From Desulfobacterales bacterium (GTDB lineage: Bacteria > Desulfobacterota > Desulfobacteria > Desulfobacterales > JAIPEE01), in the NCBI GenBank assembly GCA_021737275.1, contig JAIPEE010000020.1:1-64000 (forward strand): DNA of 64,000 bases, read 5' to 3'. A program made the translations under genes and the position numbers. Below are positions 8,958 through 18,503 of the stretch, piece by piece. The stretch's first letter is position 1. The number at the start of each line of letters is the position of its first letter. Under the pieces are notes generated by a model. It was not told where the DNA came from and made no database searches. It saw only the letters and a list, made by a program, of their open reading frames with translations.

Positions 8958-8983
8958 TCATAGTAGTCACTCATAGTAGTCAC
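8958..8983. repeat. 13-bp tandem duplication over a stop codon
   Basis: TCATAGTAGTCAC occurs twice head to tail. On the minus strand the first copy encodes the C-terminal S-D-Y-Y and the second lies just after the stop codon, so the protein end is unchanged. It is a recent-looking slippage duplication. Confidence 0.8.
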
Positions 8984-9635
8984 TTCTTTCTATTTTTTGA
9001 CCTGGACCTTTGACAATAATATCATCATCCCATTCCTTTTTTAACAGCTTTTCAATCAAGGCAAGGTTGCCGTTAATTGTTTTACATGGAATTTCAAGTG
9101 CATCCTGAATTTCAGTCACATCTTCATCTATCTCTTTGATGCAGTATGCACCGGTGTTTATTATGTCAATATTGCAGTACCCATTGCAAATTTGTTTATA
9201 GAGATCTTTAGCCAATTCGTCACCGTATTTTTTCTTTATGGATTTAATGTTGAGACCTTCCATTTGATTGAAGCTTCTAACCCATCCCTTTGTTATAAAA
9301 AGAGGCTTATCCCTGTCATTCACCTGACTTCTTTTATGGTCGCCACCTATCAGAATGGAAATACAGTCTTCGGCTTTTGGAATTATCAAAGAGGATGTTT
9401 GGGTTTCAAGATTTTCTAGTCCGCCGCCGCAGAAACCATAAGCGAGGATTATATCATCATAAAAACCGTCGTGTTTATTTATTTCTGCTTGAAGACTTTT
9501 CTGCAGATTTTCAGGTGAAGCATGAAGACCTCCATTCATCCAGACAATATCTGTTTTTAACCCTAAGCTCTGGATGAGTTTTTCAAGTTCTTCCCTTAAC
9601 GTTTCACATGCGATGAGTATTGATTTTAACGCCAT
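8967..9635 (-). CDS. DUF1638 domain protein
   Basis: A 222-residue DUF1638 protein. Hallmarks are I-L-I-A-C-E-T-L-R near the N-terminus, L-A-Y-G-F-C-G-G-G-L (about 65-74), a P-K-A-E-D-C-I-S-I-L-I-G-G block (about 86-98) and a later C-N-G-Y-C. Conserved Cys and acidic residues suggest a metal or cofactor site. The family is often found beside corrinoid methyltransferase genes of anaerobes, but none is visible here. Start ATG has an AGGG Shine-Dalgarno. Catalytic role unknown. Confidence 0.8.
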   Translation of the reverse strand: MALKSILIACETLREELEKLIQSLGLKTDIVWMNGGLHASPENLQKSLQAEINKHDGFYDDIILAYGFCGGGLENLETQTSSLIIPKAEDCISILIGGDHKRSQVNDRDKPLFITKGWVRSFNQMEGLNIKSIKKKYGDELAKDLYKQICNGYCNIDIINTGAYCIKEIDEDVTEIQDALEIPCKTINGNLALIEKLLKKEWDDDIIVKGPGQKIERSDYYE

Positions 9636-9762: not shown

Positions 9763-10122
9763 TTACCACAGGCAGATTATTTTCTTCCCCTCACGTAATC
9801 TTCCCTTTACTTTCTCCATATGTCGAAGAGTTGCAATCTCTCTTTCAATATCAGATAACTTTATGTGAAGCCTCTCTGATATGATCCCTGCCTCTGCCCC
9901 CCCGGTCTCTTTTAATATCTGCAATATTTTTGATTGAATCTCGGTAATCTCAAGATTAGATCCTTCTTTATTTAAAAAAGATTTAGCACTGTATACAGCC
10001 CAAGGATCACAAGCTTTTGCGGGTGAAAGGGCGTCCATGTAGCAATCCTCGCATAAAGTTTGTCCGTGTAATTCCCTTTCTTCTCCAACTTTGATATTCT
10101 CACTACATCTGTCACACTTCAC
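9763..10122 (-). CDS. Zinc-ribbon plus winged-helix protein
   Basis: A 119-residue protein I cannot assign to a named family. Residues 1-27 form a zinc-ribbon (C-D-R-C ... C-E-D-C). From about residue 58 a winged-helix-like segment follows (I-Q-S-K-I-L-Q-I-L-K-E-T-G-G ... I-S-E-R-L-H-I ... I-E-R-E-I-A-T-L). It starts with GTG, overlapping the Rieske-like gene's stop as GTGA and using GGAGG inside that gene, so the two are translationally coupled. The combination suggests a small DNA-binding or redox-sensing partner of the Rieske-like protein. Confidence 0.7.
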   Translation of the reverse strand: MKCDRCSENIKVGEERELHGQTLCEDCYMDALSPAKACDPWAVYSAKSFLNKEGSNLEITEIQSKILQILKETGGAEAGIISERLHIKLSDIEREIATLRHMEKVKGRLREGKKIICLW

Positions 10123-10553
10123 TTCAATTCCTCCCTTATGGATATGATCAGATTTTCCTGCTCCCTTTCCACCGGATAACGTACGATTGGATGCGGCATA
10201 GGGCCGAAGATTTTTTTCCCACCTGAGTCGTAAGTCGACTTGTTAATACTGCAGCACTGAACAGTATCGGTTCCGGGAACCGGATCCAATCGGCGATGGC
10301 CCAGATGGGTACACCGATTGTGGAACGCACGGTACTTCCCGTCCTCACCATATACAACAAGCACCCGCTTCGAAAGGTTATTTCCTTCGATCCGTATTGC
10401 ACCACCAGGGGTTTTTAGTTCGGAAGCCTTGCTCAAATCGATGATAAGTTTTCCGTTGGCATAACTCCAGCAATCATCTATTTCAGGTTTGGAAGTCGCC
10501 GATATGCCCAGTAATCGCTGGAAAAAACTTCTTTTTAAGAATTTGATGTCCAT
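10119..10553 (-). CDS. Rieske-like [2Fe-2S] domain protein with an altered second ligand pair
   Basis: A 144-residue soluble Rieske-fold protein with no membrane segment or signal. The first ligand box C-T-H-L-G-H is intact, as is the closing G-P-M-P-H-P-I-V-R-Y-P-V. The second box, normally C-x-C-H-G-S or C-x-x-H, reads C-C-S-I-N-K-S-T-Y-D, so the expected second His is replaced by Asn (or shifted Cys-Cys). Good Shine-Dalgarno AGGAG. It is followed by the coupled zinc-ribbon gene. Either the cluster has unusual ligation or the fold has lost it. An electron-transfer or ferredoxin-like role is inferred only. Confidence 0.78.
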   Translation of the reverse strand: MDIKFLKRSFFQRLLGISATSKPEIDDCWSYANGKLIIDLSKASELKTPGGAIRIEGNNLSKRVLVVYGEDGKYRAFHNRCTHLGHRRLDPVPGTDTVQCCSINKSTYDSGGKKIFGPMPHPIVRYPVEREQENLIISIREELK

Positions 10554-10616
10554 ATAATGTCTCCTGTCTTGTATTTCGTTTAGGATCCAAGAGCTTTGTA
10601 TATAGGAAATTTAAAA

Positions 10617-11132
10617 TCAGTCCAAAACTTCTTTTGCAAACACTTTGGCTTTGCCTTCATCTTCTTCATTGGGATATCCGGTCATCTGTTTAACCATTCC
10701 TGCCCACTGTTCATCCGTTAAATTCAGTTTCTTCCGTACCATTGAATGCATGGACTCAATTAAAAAGCCCTGACAATCAAAACAGCCTTTGTATTCAATC
10801 CCTTTTTCCTTGCAAGCGACTTTGATGGGTTCTGCAAATCCATCCATGTCCTGATTTGGATAAGCCGGGGCAAAATGAGTAATGAAACCAGCCATTTTTT
10901 GACCGGAACTTTCCTTAATAACACCCAAATACTCTTTAACCGGTGCTGCCAGACTGCCGGAGTGCAACGGCGAGCCAATGAAAATGACGTCATAGCCGGC
11001 CACTTCATCGGGTGTAATATCTTCAAGCTTTTTTAAATCGGCCTCATTCGCCCGGGCTGCTTCCTCGCAGATGGCTTTGGCTATTTTCTCTGTGTTTCCA
11101 CTCTGGCTAAAATAAGTAACTAATACTTTCAT
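10617..11132 (-). CDS. Flavodoxin-family protein (NAD(P)H dehydrogenase / flavodoxin fold)
   Basis: A 171-residue FMN-binding protein. The phosphate-binding loop is Y-F-S-Q-S-G-N-T-E-K-I-A (residues 6-17), and I-F-I-G-S-P-L-H-S-G-S matches the flavin-ring loop. I chose the ATG at 11132 because GGGAG precedes it; the upstream in-frame codons have no Shine-Dalgarno. Its promoter region holds a Crp/Fnr-type dyad at 11200-11215 spaced from a TATATT -10, shared with the iron-sulfur flavoprotein gene at 13274. It is longer than classic flavodoxins and may be a flavin-dependent reductase. Confidence 0.85.
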   Translation of the reverse strand: MKVLVTYFSQSGNTEKIAKAICEEAARANEADLKKLEDITPDEVAGYDVIFIGSPLHSGSLAAPVKEYLGVIKESSGQKMAGFITHFAPAYPNQDMDGFAEPIKVACKEKGIEYKGCFDCQGFLIESMHSMVRKKLNLTDEQWAGMVKQMTGYPNEEDEGKAKVFAKEVLD

Positions 11133-11172
11133 GATGTAATCTCCCTTTTTGATTATTTTTAAATTTAACGGC

Positions 11173-11215
11173 AATATACGTCTCTGTAAATAAATATTCT
11201 GTAGTAGCTGTTACA
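11173..11215 (-). promoter_or_regulatory. Class II Crp/Fnr-type promoter of the flavodoxin gene
   Basis: On the minus strand, TGTAACAGCTACTACA (11200-11215) is an imperfect 16-bp dyad. Exactly 21 bases downstream lies TATATT (11173-11178), giving a site centred near -41 to a start about 36 bases before the ATG. The promoter at 13314-13356 has the same motif at the same spacing. Confidence 0.6.
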
Positions 11216-11330
11216 ATATTAAAAATAATTTTCAGTAAAATTAAAATATAAAAAAATATGATATCAAATAGTTAAATAAATATCGGAGATCGAATAATTT
11301 GACAGATCCGGTACAAATTTGGAAAAAATA

Positions 11331-12035
11331 TTATGCGATTTTCAGGGTGGGCAGGATGAGCAGTTTATTTTCAAGAATAATTTTTCCCGCTTTTTTAAGA
11401 GCCTTCATGGCCCGGGTAATACTGACCCTATGGGCTCCCGTTAAGAAACCAAGGTCTTCATGCGTCAGAGGAAACTGGATCACTACACCTTGGGAACTTT
11501 GTGCCCCATGCTCTTTTGCAACATTGCTGAGTACCCTATAGAGACGTTCCTCAATATTTGCAACGGCAAGGCTTTCCACACGATTTGTGAGCTGGGAAAT
11601 TCTATCGCTAAGAGTTTTAATAATTTGGAGGCCAACCCTGGGATGCTTCATAACCAATTCTTCAAATTGACTTCGGCTGAAACCGCAGGTCATTGTAGCC
11701 TCAAGACAAACCGCACTGACCGGATATTGGCCTTCTTCAGAGAACATATTCTCCCCGACAAAGTCGCCGGCTTTTCGTATATCAAGGGTTAATTCCGTAC
11801 CATCTTCAAGAACTTTGGAAAGCTTAATGCGGCCGCCTTTGACCAGAAACATTTCATTTGCAGGATCTCCCTGTAAAAACAAGGATTGCCCTTTGACAAG
11901 TTTTTTTCTTAAAGCATCTTGACTCAGGGCTTTTATGTCAGCAGAATCAAGATCTTTAAATATCCAGAGGTTGCCAATGCAAGTTGGCGACAATTCAATG
12001 TCTTTTCCAGCAATTTGTTGGCACAGGCAAGTCAT
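11331..12035 (-). CDS. Crp/Fnr-family transcriptional regulator
   Basis: 234-residue regulator. An N-terminal cyclic-nucleotide-type beta barrel carries G-Q-S-L-F-L-Q-G-D-P-A-N-E-M-F-L-V-K-G-G, then a dimer helix, then a C-terminal helix-turn-helix with L-T-H-E-D-L-G-F-L-T-G-A-H-R-V-S-I-T-R. The start at 12035 is favoured by GAGGGG; an upstream ATG (12077) lacks one. The N-terminus has C-L-C and a third Cys near residue 19, plus two internal Cys in A-V-C-L-E-A-T-M-T-C, so an oxygen- or redox-sensitive Fe-S centre as in FNR is possible but not certain. It is flanked by two genes carrying matching dyads, the likely targets. Confidence 0.88.
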   Translation of the reverse strand: MTCLCQQIAGKDIELSPTCIGNLWIFKDLDSADIKALSQDALRKKLVKGQSLFLQGDPANEMFLVKGGRIKLSKVLEDGTELTLDIRKAGDFVGENMFSEEGQYPVSAVCLEATMTCGFSRSQFEELVMKHPRVGLQIIKTLSDRISQLTNRVESLAVANIEERLYRVLSNVAKEHGAQSSQGVVIQFPLTHEDLGFLTGAHRVSITRAMKALKKAGKIILENKLLILPTLKIA

Positions 12036-12110
12036 ATTCCCCTCTTTTATTTGAATTGTTTTATTAATACTTAACAATATGAGGTCATTCGGTATACAGG
12101 TTATATTTAA

Positions 12111-12130
12111 TCAGTTGCAATTTCAACTGA
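12111..12130. promoter_or_regulatory. Dyad upstream of the Crp/Fnr gene
   Basis: TCAGTTG-N6-CAACTGA, a perfect 7+7 bp inverted repeat 76 bases before the regulator start. Size and spacing suit a Crp/Fnr-family operator, perhaps for autoregulation, although its sequence differs from the two dyads at 11200 and 13341. Confidence 0.4.
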
Positions 12131-12204
12131 ATTTTAAAATACCTTTATTAAGATTTAACCAGCCGCTTCGAAACATAATATATGCGACCGGTTAAACCGG
12201 ATTA

Positions 12205-12549
12205 TTATATTGTTATCAGCTTTTCACCAATTTTTAGTATTTGTGTTAAAGGCTCTCCCCAACGAATGAGTTCAATATCAAGATTTTCCAATATCTTTGT
12301 TACCCCAAGCTGATCAGCGCAAGTTTTACAAGCACTTATATGCACGCCTTCAAGTTTGGCTTCTTTAATAAGCTCTTGTATTTTTATATTTTCACTTACC
12401 AATCTTACGGTAGCACCCCAGATTATAATTGTAACATCATCCCAATACCTTTTTCTTAATGATGTTATTCCATACATGAAGACCATTTTTTCAGATGTAA
12501 TGAAATTGTCATTTGTCCAAAGTATATGAAGTTTTGTTTTTTTTGGCAT
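12205..12549 (-). CDS. DsrE-family sulfur-relay-like protein
   Basis: A 114-residue DsrE/YchN-fold protein. The pattern L-H-I-L-W-T-N-D-N near the start, T-I-I-I-W-G-A-T-V-R-L-V and the cysteine block I-S-A-C-K-T-C-A-D-Q-L-G-V (about residues 72-84) match the family, in which that Cys accepts persulfide sulfur. GGAG precedes the ATG. It lies between the Crp/Fnr gene and the iron-sulfur flavoprotein gene on the same strand. A sulfur-transfer or redox-signalling role is inferred; it is not the DsrE of the dissimilatory sulfite reductase cluster. Confidence 0.8.
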   Translation of the reverse strand: MPKKTKLHILWTNDNFITSEKMVFMYGITSLRKRYWDDVTIIIWGATVRLVSENIKIQELIKEAKLEGVHISACKTCADQLGVTKILENLDIELIRWGEPLTQILKIGEKLITI

Positions 12550-12620
12550 GTTAACCGGCTCCTTTATTATTATAAAAATTTAACATTGGCACCCAAATCA
12601 CATGATTTGAATCTTAGTCA

Positions 12621-13274
12621 TTACATTAAAACCCGATTTTTGATTCTTTGGGCGATTTCCGGCCCTAATTGATTGGCCCTATCCCAAACGTCAGACTGAT
12701 CCTCAACTTTACAAAATTTATCCGGGGTAACGGTTGTGTCATTCCCAAAGACCCAGGGCAGAGAGCTCATCGGGCATGTTTGGCCATAGCCGCATACCAG
12801 ACATTCAGTATTACCGGTTACTTTCAGATTATCCAATATTTCCATTCCCTCTGTCATCAGCGCATGCTCAATCTGTTTGCTTGTCTCTTCAAGTCCGGGC
12901 GCCCCCCGGCCAATTCCGGTAGCTATAGTAACGGCAAACTTCCCCCGGTTTAATCCATTTTGGTGACGTAAAGAAAACAATCTTTCAAGAAATGCCTTTG
13001 TAAAACCATCAACAGAACCATAAGGCGAATATCCGCCAACTATAATTGCATCTGCTTTTCGAACCTTTTCTGACAACTCTGAAAAATCATCTTTGACCTT
13101 ACAAATGTTATCGTTTTTACAGCCGAGGCAGGCGATGCAAGGGCTTACATTTATTTTACTCAGTTTTACAAATTCTGATTTCAAACCGCTGCTATTAAGA
13201 ACCGCCTGAACCAAACGATCCGTATTACTATTTTTAATTGGACTGCCTGAAATCCCTAAAATCTGTGGTTGCAT
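12621..13274 (-). CDS. Iron-sulfur flavoprotein / NADPH-dependent FMN reductase family
   Basis: A 217-residue flavodoxin-like FMN protein. The loop I-S-G-S-P-I-K-N-S-N-T-D (9-20) binds FMN phosphate. The compact cluster motif C-I-A-C-L-G-C-K-N-D-N-I-C (about 46-58; spacing C-x2-C-x2-C-x5-C) is that of the methanogen Isf family, which carries a [4Fe-4S] cluster. Two more C-x2-C-like stretches (C-L-V-C and C-P-M) occur later. AAGGAG precedes the ATG. The promoter has the Crp/Fnr-type dyad. Isf proteins move electrons between ferredoxin and small oxidants, fitting oxidative-stress defence. Confidence 0.87.
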   Translation of the reverse strand: MQPQILGISGSPIKNSNTDRLVQAVLNSSGLKSEFVKLSKINVSPCIACLGCKNDNICKVKDDFSELSEKVRKADAIIVGGYSPYGSVDGFTKAFLERLFSLRHQNGLNRGKFAVTIATGIGRGAPGLEETSKQIEHALMTEGMEILDNLKVTGNTECLVCGYGQTCPMSSLPWVFGNDTTVTPDKFCKVEDQSDVWDRANQLGPEIAQRIKNRVLM

Positions 13275-13524: not shown

Positions 13525-15333
13525 TTAGACTTTCCGAACGTATGATTCCCAGCTTTCAAAAGGCTGTTTCTCAAACTTCATTGAGCCGTCATCGCCCTTG
13601 AATATGTTGATCCAGGCATTCCAATTTTTAGTATCCATTTCAGGATAATCCAGTCGATAGTGGCTGCAGCGGCTCTCTTTGCGCAAAAGTGATGCCTTGA
13701 GCTTCATTTCAGCACTAATAATCATGTTAGCGGTTTCAAAAACCAGGCGTAATTCATGCAAGTCCGCAGCTTTCAGCATTGGCATGTGATGATCTCTCAA
13801 CTCTTCAACATATGCCAGTGCCGCTTTTAGGAGTCTTTCTTTCTTTATGTATATAATAAAATTGGGAATCATGATGCCCTGCAAAGTCTGTGTCACCCAT
13901 GCCGGACTATAACCGGCCTCTCGCTTTAAAGGTGCAAGGATCTCTTCTTTTACCTTATTCATTTTAGCGTTTGAAATATTTGGCATTTCAAGGCCCTGGC
14001 AATATTCAGACGCCGCCTTCCCGGCAACAGCACCCTGTACCGCAGAACCGGCCAATGAGGATCCTATCTGGGTATAGATTGCACCCGCCATATACGAACC
14101 CAAGGCATCACCGGCGGCATACAAACCAGGAATCGTTGATTCACATTTATCGTTTATTGGAACCAAACCCTCTGATTTGTGGATGGACATTCCAGCTGAA
14201 GAACCACCCACAGGTGTTCTGCCCATTCCCGGGCCAGGCGCGCCGCCTTCTTTTAAAGGATCTCCTCCGCCCGGAGGGATTCCGGCACACGGCTTCTCTT
14301 CACTGTTCCGATAGTTATTTTCCGCAAATTCAGCCGGCCTATACGGTCCGCCTTGAACGGTATTTCCCGATCCCGGAGGTCCGCCTGCCACGGAATTTCC
14401 GGATCCCGGAGGTCCGCCTGCCACGGAATTTCCGGACATATAGGCTTTGTAATTCAGGTCTACACCCAAATCATGATGTACTTCAACACCCGTTACATTG
14501 GGTTTTTGTTCAAACATATTCCCCCATCCGTCAAAACAGGCCGCTGCGTTTTTAGCCCGGCCGGGATGCCCATCATTCCACTCCTTGCCGGTCACTTTGG
14601 CGCCGATATTATAGGCCATGACCGTGCCGTCATGGGTGAGATCACAAATCGGAAACCCATTGGGCTTGAAACCGCCGGCCCCGGTGCATAGAATCACACT
14701 TTTGGCCTTGAAAAAAAGGATCTTTTCTACATCCAGGTTGAAGCCGGCCGCACCAACAATCTGTCCCTTTTCTTTAATCAAATGAGTGATTACGATTCTC
14801 TCTTTAACAGGGATATTTCTCTCTTTGATGGGATTGTTAAAACTCTTGTTATAAAGTGGTGAATTAAAGAACCCCCATTCCTTGAGTTCATTGACACGGG
14901 CCAGGGAGTGCTCCGCCATTTGCCGAGTATAAACCGGATTATTGGTGCCCAGTGCAGATCGTGAGACTGTATCTACAAATTCATCAAGGCTCATTTTTGC
15001 AGAACTGGGATCGAATGAGAATATTCCTTTTGCAAAGGGCGTCTGACCTGAAGACCCCAGGCGCCCTTTGGAGACAAGAATCACTTTGGAACCTGCATCA
15101 TATGCCTTGACAGCAGCAAATAATCCTGCCATTCCCCCACCGATAACTAATACATCTGCTTCGTTTTCGGTATATGTCATTTTGTTAATATCAATTTCAG
15201 GGATATTAGGGCTGCAATCTCCATATTTTGGGGATAACCCCATGGCGGCCATTGCTGCGAGTCCTGCGGCACCGCCTGCAAGAGTCATGAACTTGCGGCG
15301 GGACATATCTTTTGTATTTTGGGACGTTGTCAT
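13525..15333 (-). CDS. Tat-exported FAD-dependent fumarate-reductase-like flavoprotein
   Basis: A 602-residue flavoprotein of the succinate dehydrogenase/fumarate reductase/APS reductase superfamily. The twin-arginine signal S-R-R-K-F-M (about residues 11-16) and hydrophobic A/G-rich stretch predict export. V-I-G-G-G-M-A-G-L binds FAD. S-S-G-Q-T-P-F-A-K-G-I, I-P-G-L-Y-A-A-G-D and the C-terminal H-Y-R-L-D-Y-P-E-M-D are family blocks. Start 15333 follows the cytochrome b stop by one base with GAGG; a codon at 15345 would overlap. Residues about 297-381 are an odd Gly/Pro-rich insert with an 11-residue tandem repeat. Substrate unknown; predicted last member of a ferredoxin-cytochrome b-flavoprotein chain. 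Confidence 0.88.
   Translation of the reverse strand: MTTSQNTKDMSRRKFMTLAGGAAGLAAMAAMGLSPKYGDCSPNIPEIDINKMTYTENEADVLVIGGGMAGLFAAVKAYDAGSKVILVSKGRLGSSGQTPFAKGIFSFDPSSAKMSLDEFVDTVSRSALGTNNPVYTRQMAEHSLARVNELKEWGFFNSPLYNKSFNNPIKERNIPVKERIVITHLIKEKGQIVGAAGFNLDVEKILFFKAKSVILCTGAGGFKPNGFPICDLTHDGTVMAYNIGAKVTGKEWNDGHPGRAKNAAACFDGWGNMFEQKPNVTGVEVHHDLGVDLNYKAYMSGNSVAGGPPGSGNSVAGGPPGSGNTVQGGPYRPAEFAENNYRNSEEKPCAGIPPGGGDPLKEGGAPGPGMGRTPVGGSSAGMSIHKSEGLVPINDKCESTIPGLYAAGDALGSYMAGAIYTQIGSSLAGSAVQGAVAGKAASEYCQGLEMPNISNAKMNKVKEEILAPLKREAGYSPAWVTQTLQGIMIPNFIIYIKKERLLKAALAYVEELRDHHMPMLKAADLHELRLVFETANMIISAEMKLKASLLRKESRCSHYRLDYPEMDTKNWNAWINIFKGDDGSMKFEKQPFESWESYVRKV
14369..14434. repeat. 33-bp in-frame tandem repeat inside the flavoprotein gene
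   Basis: Two identical 33-bp units (14369-14401 and 14402-14434), plus a degenerate third toward 14336, encode repeats of G-N-S-V-A-G-G-P-P-G-S. The repeat keeps the reading frame and lies in a Gly/Pro-rich insertion of the exported flavoprotein. Confidence 0.9.
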
Positions 15334-15334
15334 T

Positions 15335-15970
15335 TTATACCTCATTACTTTTTTGTTTTTTAAAAATGTAAGTTTTCAGAAGGAGCAGAATCCCTCCTGC
15401 TGCGAGCATGCTGATTAAAATTGACATGGCAAGATTTGAGTGACGGCCAAGATCAATGACGTGCCATGCGGCAATAGAAATAAACAATACTGCCAGAATG
15501 CCGTGAAAAACCCGCCAGGTTTTGTATTTTATGGGCAGTTTTTTCCGCACAAAAGACATGATTCCCAATACCAGCATCAAGCACCATGCAATAATTCCAA
15601 GCACAACTCCCTGATTAAAGGTAGTAATGATGGTGATAAACGCATCATTCGGATCAACACCTGCCTCAAAGAACCGTGGAACAACCAGATAAAATGGATG
15701 GAGGAATAGAATGGTGACTAATGTATACCCGATGATTTTATGATATTTTGTCACTTTGCTCATTTTTAGTTCTGCAACAGCGTATCTATACCCCCGTACC
15801 CAGAAAAACTGTCCAATCATTAGGCAAAAGGCCAGAATGGTCATGACGGAAAGTAATTCTTTCAATAACAAACGCTCTGGGAAATCACCCATTATTAAGA
15901 TAAGCAGAGGTATACCTGTAAAGGCCAGTATAATCTGTTTAAAAAAATTGCTTTTGATATACGTACCCAT
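15335..15970 (-). CDS. Ferric-reductase-like cytochrome b membrane protein
   Basis: A 211-residue integral membrane protein with about six hydrophobic helices, resembling the ferric-reductase-like transmembrane domain (MsrQ/FRE type). Paired histidines for heme are visible in Y-H-K-I-I-G-Y and F-L-H-P-F, and in F-H-G-I-L-A and A-A-W-H-V-I-D. ATG at 15970 sits two bases after the ferredoxin stop with a GGGG Shine-Dalgarno, so it is in the same operon. Inferred role: carry electrons across the membrane between the cytoplasmic ferredoxin and the Tat-exported flavoprotein. Confidence 0.82.
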   Translation of the reverse strand: MGTYIKSNFFKQIILAFTGIPLLILIMGDFPERLLLKELLSVMTILAFCLMIGQFFWVRGYRYAVAELKMSKVTKYHKIIGYTLVTILFLHPFYLVVPRFFEAGVDPNDAFITIITTFNQGVVLGIIAWCLMLVLGIMSFVRKKLPIKYKTWRVFHGILAVLFISIAAWHVIDLGRHSNLAMSILISMLAAGGILLLLKTYIFKKQKSNEV

Positions 15971-15972
15971 TT

Positions 15973-16188
15973 TTACCCCCATGAAACCACAACCGGAATA
16001 GATTTCTCCGGTGAAATGGTAATTGCATCAACAGGACAATACATCCTGCACAGATGACATATCTGGCAGTCAGCCGGATATGCGATGAATGCTTTTTTCG
16101 TCTTTGGATCTTTGCGGATGACGTCGGTGGGACAAGTTTCTATGCATGTTCCACAACCAATACACCCTTGAATTTTTTTTATAGTCAT
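15973..16188 (-). CDS. 2x[4Fe-4S] ferredoxin
   Basis: A 71-residue ferredoxin with two complete cluster motifs, C-I-G-C-G-T-C-I-E-T-C-P (9-20) and C-Q-I-C-H-L-C-R-M-Y-C-P (41-52). The spacing is the usual clostridial type with a longer linker. No signal peptide, so it is cytoplasmic. First gene of the ferredoxin-cytochrome b-flavoprotein operon. Its upstream region carries two MarR-type operator sequences (16208-16234). Confidence 0.92.
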   Translation of the reverse strand: MTIKKIQGCIGCGTCIETCPTDVIRKDPKTKKAFIAYPADCQICHLCRMYCPVDAITISPEKSIPVVVSWG

Positions 16189-16284: not shown

Positions 16285-16731
16285 TTATATGCCCGGATCA
16301 AATCCTCCGAGCGTGTTGCGGATTCTTTCAAGAGGTTTGTGCAATTTATCAATTTCTTTTGGAGTAAATTCTGAGCAGATATCATTTTCGACCTGCACCA
16401 TCACGTTGACGGCAAAGTTTGCAGCATCTTTTCCTTTTGAGGTAAGCTTGACATTTATGAGCCTGTCATCGTTAACATCTCGTCTGCGGTCTATCAAACC
16501 TGATATTTCCATTTTTTTCACAAGGTTTGTAACCGTAGCGGGCCTTATGTTCAGCCCACGGCCAATTACCCCCTGGGTCAATTTACCTTTTTGCAGTAGT
16601 GCAATAAGGATTCTTGCCTGCCCAAAATGAATTCCTTCTTCACGAAGAGAGTTTCTTAATCTATCATTAAGCAGTTTTCCTATGTGCATAAAAAGATGCA
16701 TCAATGGCTTGTCCAGGTTATTATGTGTCAT
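16285..16731 (-). CDS. MarR-family transcriptional regulator
   Basis: A 148-residue winged-helix regulator. The core reads F-G-Q-A-R-I-L-I-A-L-L-Q-K-G-K-L-T-Q-G-V-I, G-R-G-L-N-I-R-P-A-T-V-T-N-L-V as recognition helix, and G-L-I-D-R-R-R-D-V-N-D-D-R for the wing with its D-x-R. I placed the start at 16731 where AAAGGAG precedes the ATG. It lies directly upstream of, and in line with, the ferredoxin operon. Shared operator motifs before both genes suggest it represses itself and the electron-transfer module, released by a small ligand or oxidant. Confidence 0.9.
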   Translation of the reverse strand: MTHNNLDKPLMHLFMHIGKLLNDRLRNSLREEGIHFGQARILIALLQKGKLTQGVIGRGLNIRPATVTNLVKKMEISGLIDRRRDVNDDRLINVKLTSKGKDAANFAVNVMVQVENDICSEFTPKEIDKLHKPLERIRNTLGGFDPGI

Positions 16732-16759
16732 AGTTTTCTCCTTTCTTAGCAAGCTAACT

Positions 16760-16773
16760 ATTAGATATCTAAT
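16760..16773. promoter_or_regulatory. MarR palindromic operator
   Basis: ATTAGATATCTAAT, a perfect 14-bp palindrome, 29 bases before the marR start codon. The same core recurs twice before the ferredoxin gene. Confidence 0.65.
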
Positions 16774-16808
16774 TGTCAAGCGTTTTTATAAAAATAAGTT
16801 TAAATAAT

Positions 16809-16840
16809 AAAGCCTCTCTGAATTTTTCAGAGAGGCTTTT
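16809..16840. terminator. Terminator of the oligopeptide-type binding protein gene
   Basis: Perfect 14-bp stem AAAGCCTCTCTGAA / TTCAGAGAGGCTTT with a 3-base loop, 26 bases after the minus-strand stop at 16866. T-rich flanks on both sides suggest it can act both ways and insulate marR. Confidence 0.85.
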
Positions 16841-16865: not shown

Positions 16866-18503
16866 TTATTTTGCATGTACAAAGAAGTAACTGAACGGGT
16901 TGATCCATGTAGAAATACCACCCATTTTCTGTACATAACCATCCAGCTTGTCAATTCTGACCGGATCATAAATATTCGCACGTAAAATCACATAGTGCGG
17001 AAGATCCCGCTGCATCATAAACTGCATTTCTCTCTGGTACTCAAAACGTTTTTCCATATCAAGCTCTTTTGCATACGCATTGAGCGCTTTATCAAATTCC
17101 GGATTGTCATAACCGGCAGAATTCCAGCCATATCCGCCGTCATCATAACTACGCATAAATTCCCATACCCAGTCAGCATACGGTCCGGGTTCTTCCATTC
17201 CAATTGCAATATCAAAACGTTTTTCATCCGGTACATAGTAAAGGTTGCCATAGGTATTATAATCAACCACATTGAGTTTGATATCAATACCAACAGGTTT
17301 AAGCTGTTCTCTTATAATAGCACCCATCTTGACATGTTCGGCATCATCAGAGGAAATAAGGAACCGATAGCTCATATTTTTTCCGGATGACGGAACATTT
17401 CTGATATCATCTCCGTCCGTATCAACATAGCCAGCCTCATCAAGCATTTTTCTTGATTTTGCCTGATCAAATTCATATTGTGGAAGGTTTTTGTTGTATT
17501 CCGGAAGTTCAGGATAGATAAAGCTGTCATGAACGACAGCCGCTTTATGATAAACGATTTCATTAATTCTGTTTTTGTCAATTGCATGGACGATGGCTCT
17601 TCTAACAGTGAGATCGCTCATACCATTATCTGTCATAAAATGGTTGAATGTAAGCCATGACAGACCAATACCATCACTGGTAATCATCTTGATGTTCTCA
17701 TCTTTTTCAAAATACTTAACAGTCAGAGGAGATACGCCACTATAACCGATCATGTCAATTTCATCACGGCGAAGTGCCATATTCTTGGCATCCGAGCTTC
17801 CATAAGTTTTAAAGGTGATTTTATCTACACGGGGTTCCTTGTTCCAGTGGCCGTCATGTCTTTCAAAAATCATATATTGAGCAGGTTTAAATTCAACCAG
17901 CTTAAATGGGCCTGAACCGATTGCCTTGGCATTGTCATATTCAAGCATCTTAAACTTCCAGCGACGCCAGATATGCTCGGGCAGAATCGGATACCAGTTG
18001 AAAGGCGGATATTTCCCACCGAAAGGATTTTTCATACTGAATTCAAAAGTCTTATCATCTATGATCACAAAACTGTCATTATCTGCATGTGTATCCGGAT
18101 AATCCCATACAGGATCTGAAGTATGAAGATATTTCATTGTGAACACCAGGTCTTTAGACGTAACCGGTTTGCCGTCATGGAAGGTGTAATTTTCGCGAAT
18201 CGTGTATTTGTATTTCTGCTGGTCTGCCGTTTCAAAACTCTCAACAGCCCAGGGAACAAACGGATAGTCAGGTGGTCCACCGATTACCCATGTTTGATCA
18301 TAAACAAGTTGCCACCACATACACCCCATTGTTTCGTACTGCCATGATTCGCCCACTCTCAATGATTCAAGCGCCTCGTCAGCCGTCCAGCCAACCCGAA
18401 GGTGGCCTGCAGCATTTGCAACCGGAGAAAACTGAACTGCAAAAACCATAATACCCAGCAGAACGACTGCCGTTTTCATTAAAATAAACCCTTTTTTACT
18501 CAT
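16866..18503 (-). CDS. ABC transporter substrate-binding protein, oligopeptide/nickel type (SBP_bac_5)
   Basis: A 545-residue periplasmic binding protein. A Sec signal peptide occupies residues 1-31, ending V-A-N-A-A. The family signature region Y-T-I-R-E-N-Y-T-F-H-D-G-K-P-V-T-S-K-D (about 100-118) is clear, with the usual two-lobe length. GGGG Shine-Dalgarno before ATG. Its ligand could be a peptide, a metal chelate or another small solute. No permease or ATPase gene is adjacent, so it is an orphan that must share a transporter encoded elsewhere. A 17-bp palindrome lies 46 bases upstream. Confidence 0.88.
   Translation of the reverse strand: MSKKGFILMKTAVVLLGIMVFAVQFSPVANAAGHLRVGWTADEALESLRVGESWQYETMGCMWWQLVYDQTWVIGGPPDYPFVPWAVESFETADQQKYKYTIRENYTFHDGKPVTSKDLVFTMKYLHTSDPVWDYPDTHADNDSFVIIDDKTFEFSMKNPFGGKYPPFNWYPILPEHIWRRWKFKMLEYDNAKAIGSGPFKLVEFKPAQYMIFERHDGHWNKEPRVDKITFKTYGSSDAKNMALRRDEIDMIGYSGVSPLTVKYFEKDENIKMITSDGIGLSWLTFNHFMTDNGMSDLTVRRAIVHAIDKNRINEIVYHKAAVVHDSFIYPELPEYNKNLPQYEFDQAKSRKMLDEAGYVDTDGDDIRNVPSSGKNMSYRFLISSDDAEHVKMGAIIREQLKPVGIDIKLNVVDYNTYGNLYYVPDEKRFDIAIGMEEPGPYADWVWEFMRSYDDGGYGWNSAGYDNPEFDKALNAYAKELDMEKRFEYQREMQFMMQRDLPHYVILRANIYDPVRIDKLDGYVQKMGGISTWINPFSYFFVHAK

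Follow-up and report, generated by a model that had tools for sequence, protein, structure and literature searches.

The adenosine 5′-phosphosulfate (APS) and 3′-phosphoadenosine 5′-phosphosulfate (PAPS) reductases are cytoplasmic enzymes that act on APS and PAPS. AprAB and the Methanothermococcus PAPS reductase (8a8o) combine a flavin adenine dinucleotide (FAD) subunit of the FrdA superfamily with a separate ferredoxin subunit carrying two [4Fe-4S] clusters. The same two parts are encoded, together with a cytochrome b, by the operon described here, which occupies positions 13525–16188 of a 64,000-nucleotide stretch of Desulfobacterales bacterium DNA (contig JAIPEE010000020.1 of assembly GCA_021737275.1; hereafter, the window). 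The C-terminal helical domain of the window flavoprotein is also shared with these reductases. Unlike them, the window unit has a twin-arginine translocation (Tat) signal, a membrane cytochrome and a Gly/Pro-rich segment, and its flavoprotein family carries an FrdA-type histidine (His260) where the AprA of the same genome has Thr.

Other described systems share other parts. FrdA and SdhA have the FAD domain, the C-terminal helical domain and both active-site histidines of the window flavoprotein, which, in contrast, lacks equivalents of Arg287, Arg390, Thr244-Glu245 and His44, the site of covalent FAD attachment. The 8-methylmenaquinol:fumarate reductase (MFR, SdhABE) of Wolinella and Campylobacter has a flavoprotein with a Tat signal and non-covalent FAD (PMC2680327), the latter being probable here too, but it differs in its larger SdhB-type Fe-S subunit, in its Cys-rich membrane subunit SdhE (a ferric-reductase fold, PF01794, in the window) and in its working fumarate site, which is not retained in the window flavoprotein. 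In MsrPQ (YedYZ), a PF01794 protein with six transmembrane helices and two hemes is likewise encoded beside a Tat-exported redox enzyme, but MsrP is a molybdoenzyme, whereas the catalytic partner in the window is a flavoprotein. Six transmembrane helices and two heme sites characterise the MsrQ-like type of wire (PMC8238504); the MsrQ-like systems of that paper are, however, recognised by flavinylation genes, none of which is present at the window operon, and its NapH-like flavin mononucleotide (FMN)-binding conduits occur in a related operon of Ilyobacter but not in the window locus. The flavinylated reductases UrdA and ArdA differ as well, since no FMN_bind domain (PF04205) was found in the window proteins tested, only in Ilyobacter.

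All parts of the operon are thus known kinds of domains, and their combination, which the initial annotation had called unusual, matched no characterised complex that we could find; a literature search returned no paper describing this operon. The module is real and conserved, and joins two subunits like those of APS reductase or complex II to a wire of the MsrQ-like or NapH-like type. Our reading, to which we assign a probability of roughly 0.6, is that it forms an oxidoreductase outside the cytoplasm, with the architecture of APS/PAPS reductase or of the hydrophilic part of complex II.

The three minus-strand genes form a tight unit. The first (15973–16188) encodes a dicluster [4Fe-4S] ferredoxin of 71 amino acids and overlaps by 10 nt the gene of a 215-amino-acid, six-helix diheme cytochrome b of the MsrQ/NOX-like type (15335–15982), whose stop codon is 1 nt away from the ATG of the flavoprotein gene (13525–15333). 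The annotated flavoprotein start (15345, 606 amino acids) is probably four codons too early, since the start in relatives corresponds to the ATG at 15333, with a GAGG 7 nt upstream; the predicted Tat-exported FAD protein has 602 amino acids from this likely start. When the flavoprotein was used to scan GTDB r220, one genome per species, 17 relatives with 64–78% identity were retrieved. As the gene order ferredoxin–cytochrome b–flavoprotein is the same in all 17, the compact operon proposed initially is not a chance arrangement.

The active site of the flavoprotein

The flavoprotein matches the Pfam families FAD_binding_2 (PF00890, 2.8e-21) and Succ_DH_flav_C (PF02910, 5.7e-12). No NCBIfam model reached its cut-off (the best scored 170.7 vs. 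587 bits); the aprA model TIGR02061 gave 84.8 bits (cut-off 641.75) and the MFR model NF042982 49.4 bits (cut-off 1100), so by sequence the protein belongs to no characterised family. Its export was part of the initial annotation and is supported by the predicted Tat signal region (15217–15333, MSRRKFMT), with RRxF present in 36 of 37 main-clade relatives.

The flavoprotein was aligned by MAFFT to E. coli FrdA, SdhA and NadB and to the genome's own AprA; a second alignment made by hhalign against an FrdA/SdhA/NadB profile (99.7%) agreed with the first. In both, FrdA His232 and His355 fall in the same columns as His260 (codon 14566–14568, motif KEWNDGH) and His389 (codon 14179–14181, motif HKSEG). 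Also in both, three FrdA elements have no counterpart: the catalytic Arg287 of the capping domain, in whose place a Gly/Pro-rich segment is found (14209–14433); the substrate-binding Arg390, replaced by Thr/Gln in GAIYTQIGSS; and Thr244-Glu245, where VEVHHD stands. The capping-domain region around Arg287 is swapped for a short conserved piece, HHDLGV..NY.AY, and the Gly/Pro-rich stretch, which is 60–93 amino acids long with 32–53% Gly+Pro in the relatives scored and contains the short internal repeat GNSVAGGPPGSG. Across 41 sequences, relatives with 41–46% identity included, seven residues do not vary: His260, His389, Lys390, Glu392, Lys254, Glu255 and Asp258. The invariant His, Lys, Glu and Asp residues, the absent arginines and the replaced capping domain together suggest that the floor of the active site is kept while the dicarboxylate grip and the lid are lost. 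The FAD-linking histidine (FrdA His44) is Gly in the window flavoprotein and in nine aligned relatives, which makes non-covalent FAD, as in MFR, probable; the FAD-binding histidine is missing from MFR as well, so the Gly is not decisive alone.

The description "fumarate-reductase-like" therefore holds at the superfamily level and fails beyond it. A periplasmic reductase of fumarate (or another dicarboxylate or an enoate), as a variant of the MFR or UrdA/ArdA type, would fit the superfamily, the predicted Tat export and the two retained histidines. We regard it as very improbable, given the missing equivalents of Arg287, Arg390 and Thr244-Glu245, the replaced capping domain, MFR and fumarate reductase models far under their cut-offs, the lack of an FMN_bind domain and the occurrence of relatives in strains of Maribacter and Thiothrix, which are aerobic-type genera. 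Identity with fumarate reductase or MFR was accordingly rejected on active-site residues and family scores, and identity with APS reductase on the aprA score and the Thr of the genome's own AprA opposite His260. From these residues we infer that the substrate is not fumarate or any other dicarboxylate bound in the FrdA fashion. Since the carboxylate-binding and proton-delivering arginines of FrdA are missing, the fumarate analogues and acrylate-type acids first suggested as test acceptors appear to be a poor choice.

Stretches rich in Pro and Gly that resemble the flavoprotein segment were also seen in sensor kinases (assigned by eye) beside the operon in related loci, which are referred to here by number (L034:2104–3681, L035:14811–16334, L006:9855–10997 and L039:6511–7581). 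One sensor kinase beside the operon, in L007, is of the LytS type, as confirmed by Pfam.

The membrane wire and the side of the ferredoxin

The cytochrome b matches Ferric_reduct (PF01794) at 1.1e-11. It has six hydrophobic segments that obey the positive-inside rule, with both ends cytoplasmic. Its candidate heme ligands form two H-x13-H pairs, H81/H95 and H160/H174, which lie near opposite membrane faces and show no variation among 18 sequences. With the PF01794 fold and four heme histidines on two transmembrane helices, the protein has the features of the MsrQ/NOX/ferric reductase domain, in agreement with the ferric-reductase-like cytochrome b proposed initially. Neither of the two observations named at the outset as contrary evidence, a flavoprotein grouping with an enzyme of known acceptor and a cytochrome b without heme histidines, was made. 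The top Foldseek matches of its AlphaFold2 model (predicted local distance difference test, pLDDT, 77.3) were Streptococcus NOX (SpNOX) and STEAP4, with high probability and E above 0.1.

The ferredoxin has eight cysteines in two [4Fe-4S] motifs (Fer4, 2.3e-10; Fer4_7, 4.9e-10). It aligns from its first residue with the PAPS reductase beta chain 8a8o_C and also matches AprB; its layout is that of the beta subunit of APS/PAPS reductases. Both ferredoxin and flavoprotein thus match chains of the same solved complexes, AprAB and PAPS reductase alpha/beta (8a8o).

Of 37 intact loci, defined as not cut by a contig end, all have the ferredoxin and 34 the cytochrome b. No member of the operon evolves more slowly than the ferredoxin, whose median pairwise identity over 18 loci is 79% (flavoprotein 72%, cytochrome b 44%). 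Intact ferredoxin–flavoprotein pairs that have no adjacent cytochrome b were found in L037, L103, Ilyobacter and the second unit of L097. In L037, no cytochrome b was found anywhere in the genome (an assembly in 1240 contigs), and the SWG C-terminus of the ferredoxin is retained although no cytochrome b gene overlaps it. In L103, a clean in-frame deletion has removed the cytochrome b, and its MGVKM start is now fused to the flavoprotein. The divergent unit of L097 (9752–12897), which adjoins a normal three-gene operon, consists of a Tat flavoprotein (41% identity), a ferredoxin and a Tat protein with a metallo-beta-lactamase fold (by eye) and a GPP-rich loop. L036 (G441) was dropped as a further unit of this kind because its flavoprotein carries an in-frame TAG.

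The operon on the Ilyobacter polytropus plasmid pILYOP01 (L093:8437–16732; flavoproteins with 41–46% identity) begins with the gene of a NapH-like membrane protein with FMN_bind, followed by those of a small secreted protein, a ferredoxin and three flavoproteins and, at the end, by tatA-tatC-tatA. An RR signal is seen in the last of the three flavoproteins, and the other two are without signal peptides. The NapH-like protein (Fer4_5 plus FMN_bind) stands in the place of the cytochrome b. Tat can export heterodimers with one signal peptide. PMC10924467 describes such export on a single signal peptide, and the hydrophilic subunits of Wolinella MFR are exported via the Tat signal of its flavoprotein (PMC2680327). 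NapH-like FMN proteins are regarded as exchangeable wires to extracytosolic oxidoreductases (PMC8238504).

In the initial annotation, electrons started from a cytoplasmic ferredoxin and moved through the cytochrome b to an exported flavoprotein; spelled out, such a chain would enter the cytochrome b at its inner face and cross via the two hemes to a flavoprotein that alone, outside, reduced the acceptor. The lack of an export signal on the ferredoxin, the heme histidines near both faces, the positively charged inner loops of the cytochrome and its presence in 34 of 37 loci all agree with such a chain. However, ferredoxin and flavoprotein stay paired where the cytochrome b is missing, and in Ilyobacter the ferredoxin is kept although the replacement membrane protein has Fe-S domains of its own. 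Because of these cytochrome b-less pairs, the Ilyobacter operon, the slow evolution of the ferredoxin, the 8a8o match and the MFR precedent, we consider the cytoplasmic placement rather unlikely and export of the ferredoxin–flavoprotein pair together by Tat the probable course.

Several points weigh against joint export and the architecture that goes with it. The signal-less ferredoxin has already been mentioned, and a cytochrome b in 34 of 37 loci, with hemes near both membrane faces, would be equally expected for a cytoplasmic donor. A cytochrome b encoded elsewhere in the genome could serve L103 and L097, as its absence was read at the locus; the L037 assembly is fragmented to the extent given above; and for the Ilyobacter flavoproteins without a signal, a cytoplasmic location is a simple alternative. 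The missing capping domain, finally, is read from sequence alignment, the AlphaFold2 model of the flavoprotein (16 close relatives as input) being unusable with a pLDDT of 43.6.

If the pair is exported jointly, the FAD subunit and the dicluster ferredoxin would first assemble in the cytoplasm and would then, already folded, leave by Tat on the flavoprotein signal peptide. The ferredoxin would then act as an Fe-S relay between FAD and the membrane, while the diheme cytochrome b would be the transmembrane wire coupling the pair to a presumed partner, the quinone pool or a cytoplasmic donor; this wire would be exchangeable, with other organisms using another, such as the NapH-like FMN protein. 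The substrate would meet a flavin site with two invariant histidines and the Lys, Glu and Asp residues; where FrdA has a capping domain that closes, it would find a Gly/Pro-rich flap, probably a flexible one. The enzyme is somewhat more likely to reduce its substrate than to oxidise it.

Distribution, neighbouring genes and substrate leads

The 17 relatives come from Desulforhopalus, a Desulfobacteraceae metagenome-assembled genome (MAG), several Bacteroidales, Flavobacteriaceae, Candidatus Chlorobium antarcticum, Thiothrix lacustris and a gammaproteobacterial MAG. A further copy is carried by a Paracoccus seriniphilus plasmid (flavoprotein 62% identity). With the divergent Fusobacteriota copy of Ilyobacter, the flavoprotein family recurs in five phyla, the others being Desulfobacterota, Bacteroidota, Chlorobiota and Pseudomonadota. 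Within these, the module is sparse: it is present in 1 of 395 Desulfobacterota genomes, 16 of 389 genomes of the window's order and 3 of 397 genomes in the family to which Lutibacter oricola belongs, while genomes G1148 and G1132 have three copies each. In trees, the copies from Gammaproteobacteria fall among those of Bacteroidales. This nesting and the patchy spread point to horizontal transfer of the module. Scans of viral contigs for diverse flavoprotein relatives found none.

Two loci, from genomes of the same family, contain a lone in-frame TAG in an otherwise intact gene, namely the flavoprotein gene of L036 (9032–10867, Q to TAG) and the cytochrome b gene of L100 (5614–6264, W to TAG). 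These may reflect decay of the copies or, possibly, the use of pyrrolysine.

A CotH gene cluster adjoins the operon in 11 of the 17 named relatives, and CotH is found in the genomes of 13. The CotH, VTC, DUF4956, Cthe_2159, Lcl_C and YHYH neighbours were confirmed by Pfam on chosen members; CotH, DUF4956, VTC and Lcl_C also stand beside the operon in the Desulfobacterota relative L036. CotH, a polyphosphate polymerase (VTC) and DUF4956 are known as an accessory module beside Gram-positive Pel polysaccharide loci (PMC7112168); here these families accompany the operon in many relatives from the Bacteroidota and in one, L036, from the Desulfobacterota. The papers we searched on CotH-VTC-DUF4956 gave no link to this flavoprotein, and none was found on CotH with VTC and DUF4956 in Bacteroidota.

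Nine loci (L004, L012, L034, L036, L092, L102, L103, L105 and L107) encode near the operon a small secreted protein with two invariant cysteines and a GPPPEA motif (consensus QGPPPEAxxACEGKxAGDTAEF....GETVTGTC), whose seed matched no Pfam family. The two-Cys domain (AC.GK.EGD.C....G..v.G.C) also occurs as tandem repeats inside CotH kinases (the CotH open reading frames (ORFs) of L071, L072 and L073) and fused N-terminally to an Lcl_C protein (L070:3207–4694). Among 96 same-order genomes, a search at E ≤ 1e-10 detected the two-Cys protein in 4 of the 5 with the operon vs. 1 of 91 others, in a test that is partly circular, since the profile was partly built from operon-bearing genomes. ORFs with GPP/PPG motifs make up 17% (25/146) of those within 3 kb of the operon vs. 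6% (12/212) of those farther away, with a p of 7e-4 that is optimistic because the loci are related.

The substrate could thus be the secreted proteins or matrix polymers of the CotH/VTC/Lcl_C/two-Cys loci, which would undergo MsrPQ-like redox maturation or repair; the Cthe_2159 neighbours fit this too. We think this unlikely, though compatible with joint export: the window's genome has neither CotH (the same search was positive in three control genomes) nor a small two-Cys protein, the loci cannot count as independent, and many secreted proteins of this kind have Gly/Pro-rich tails. YHYH was also missing from the window's genome, a weak result since no control genome matched either. More doubtful still is a new class of extracytoplasmic flavoenzymes acting on macromolecules, in which the ferredoxin and flavoprotein would leave together by Tat, the Gly/Pro flap would open the flavin to secreted proteins with the GPP motif or two-Cys domain and the wires would be interchangeable.

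Upstream of the window operon, on the minus strand, lies a MarR-family regulator gene (16285–16779, likely start ATG at 16731; PF01047, 1.8e-11). An orthologue (57–69% identity) is found upstream of the operon in six loci (L094–L098 and L100), and a Bcr/CflA-like major facilitator superfamily (MFS) gene (subfamily by eye) lies downstream in L001, L094, L095, L097, L100 and L103. A MarR gene on one side of the operon, often with an MFS gene on the other, marks the window's closest relatives, in place of the CotH and two-Cys neighbours. These genes suggest, equally tentatively and again compatibly with joint export, a small-molecule substrate (a xenobiotic, antibiotic or metabolite) that is sensed by MarR and exported by the MFS protein. 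This also seems unlikely, as the MarR/MFS context is confined to Desulfobacterota, the corresponding place downstream of the window operon holds no MFS gene, and MarR and MFS genes are common. Neither the secreted-protein nor the MarR/MFS neighbours fix the substrate; both serve as leads.

A terminator-like hairpin with a 14-bp stem (16809–16839, minus strand) stands between the MarR gene and the next gene upstream (16866–18503); it comes from a pattern scan in which the number of sites was not above that in shuffles. Downstream of the operon, on the same strand, a redox-flavoured cluster (10119–13274) encodes a Rieske protein (10119–10553), a flavodoxin-like protein (by eye; 10617–11174), a CRP/FNR regulator (11331–12077), a DsrE-like protein (12205–12549) and an FMN-reductase family protein (12621–13274), the last without a match among the related loci examined. 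A DUF1638 protein is encoded at 8967–9635 (1.1e-41).

Joint export would make the pair a counterpart of APS reductase that works outside the cytoplasm; judged by domain content, no complex-II-like enzyme located there would be smaller. The exchange of cytochrome b for a NapH-like FMN protein in Ilyobacter would exemplify one enzyme pair on different membrane wires. The repeated neighbours, namely the two-Cys GPP protein, the CotH loci and the MarR/MFS genes, make the question of the substrate directly testable.

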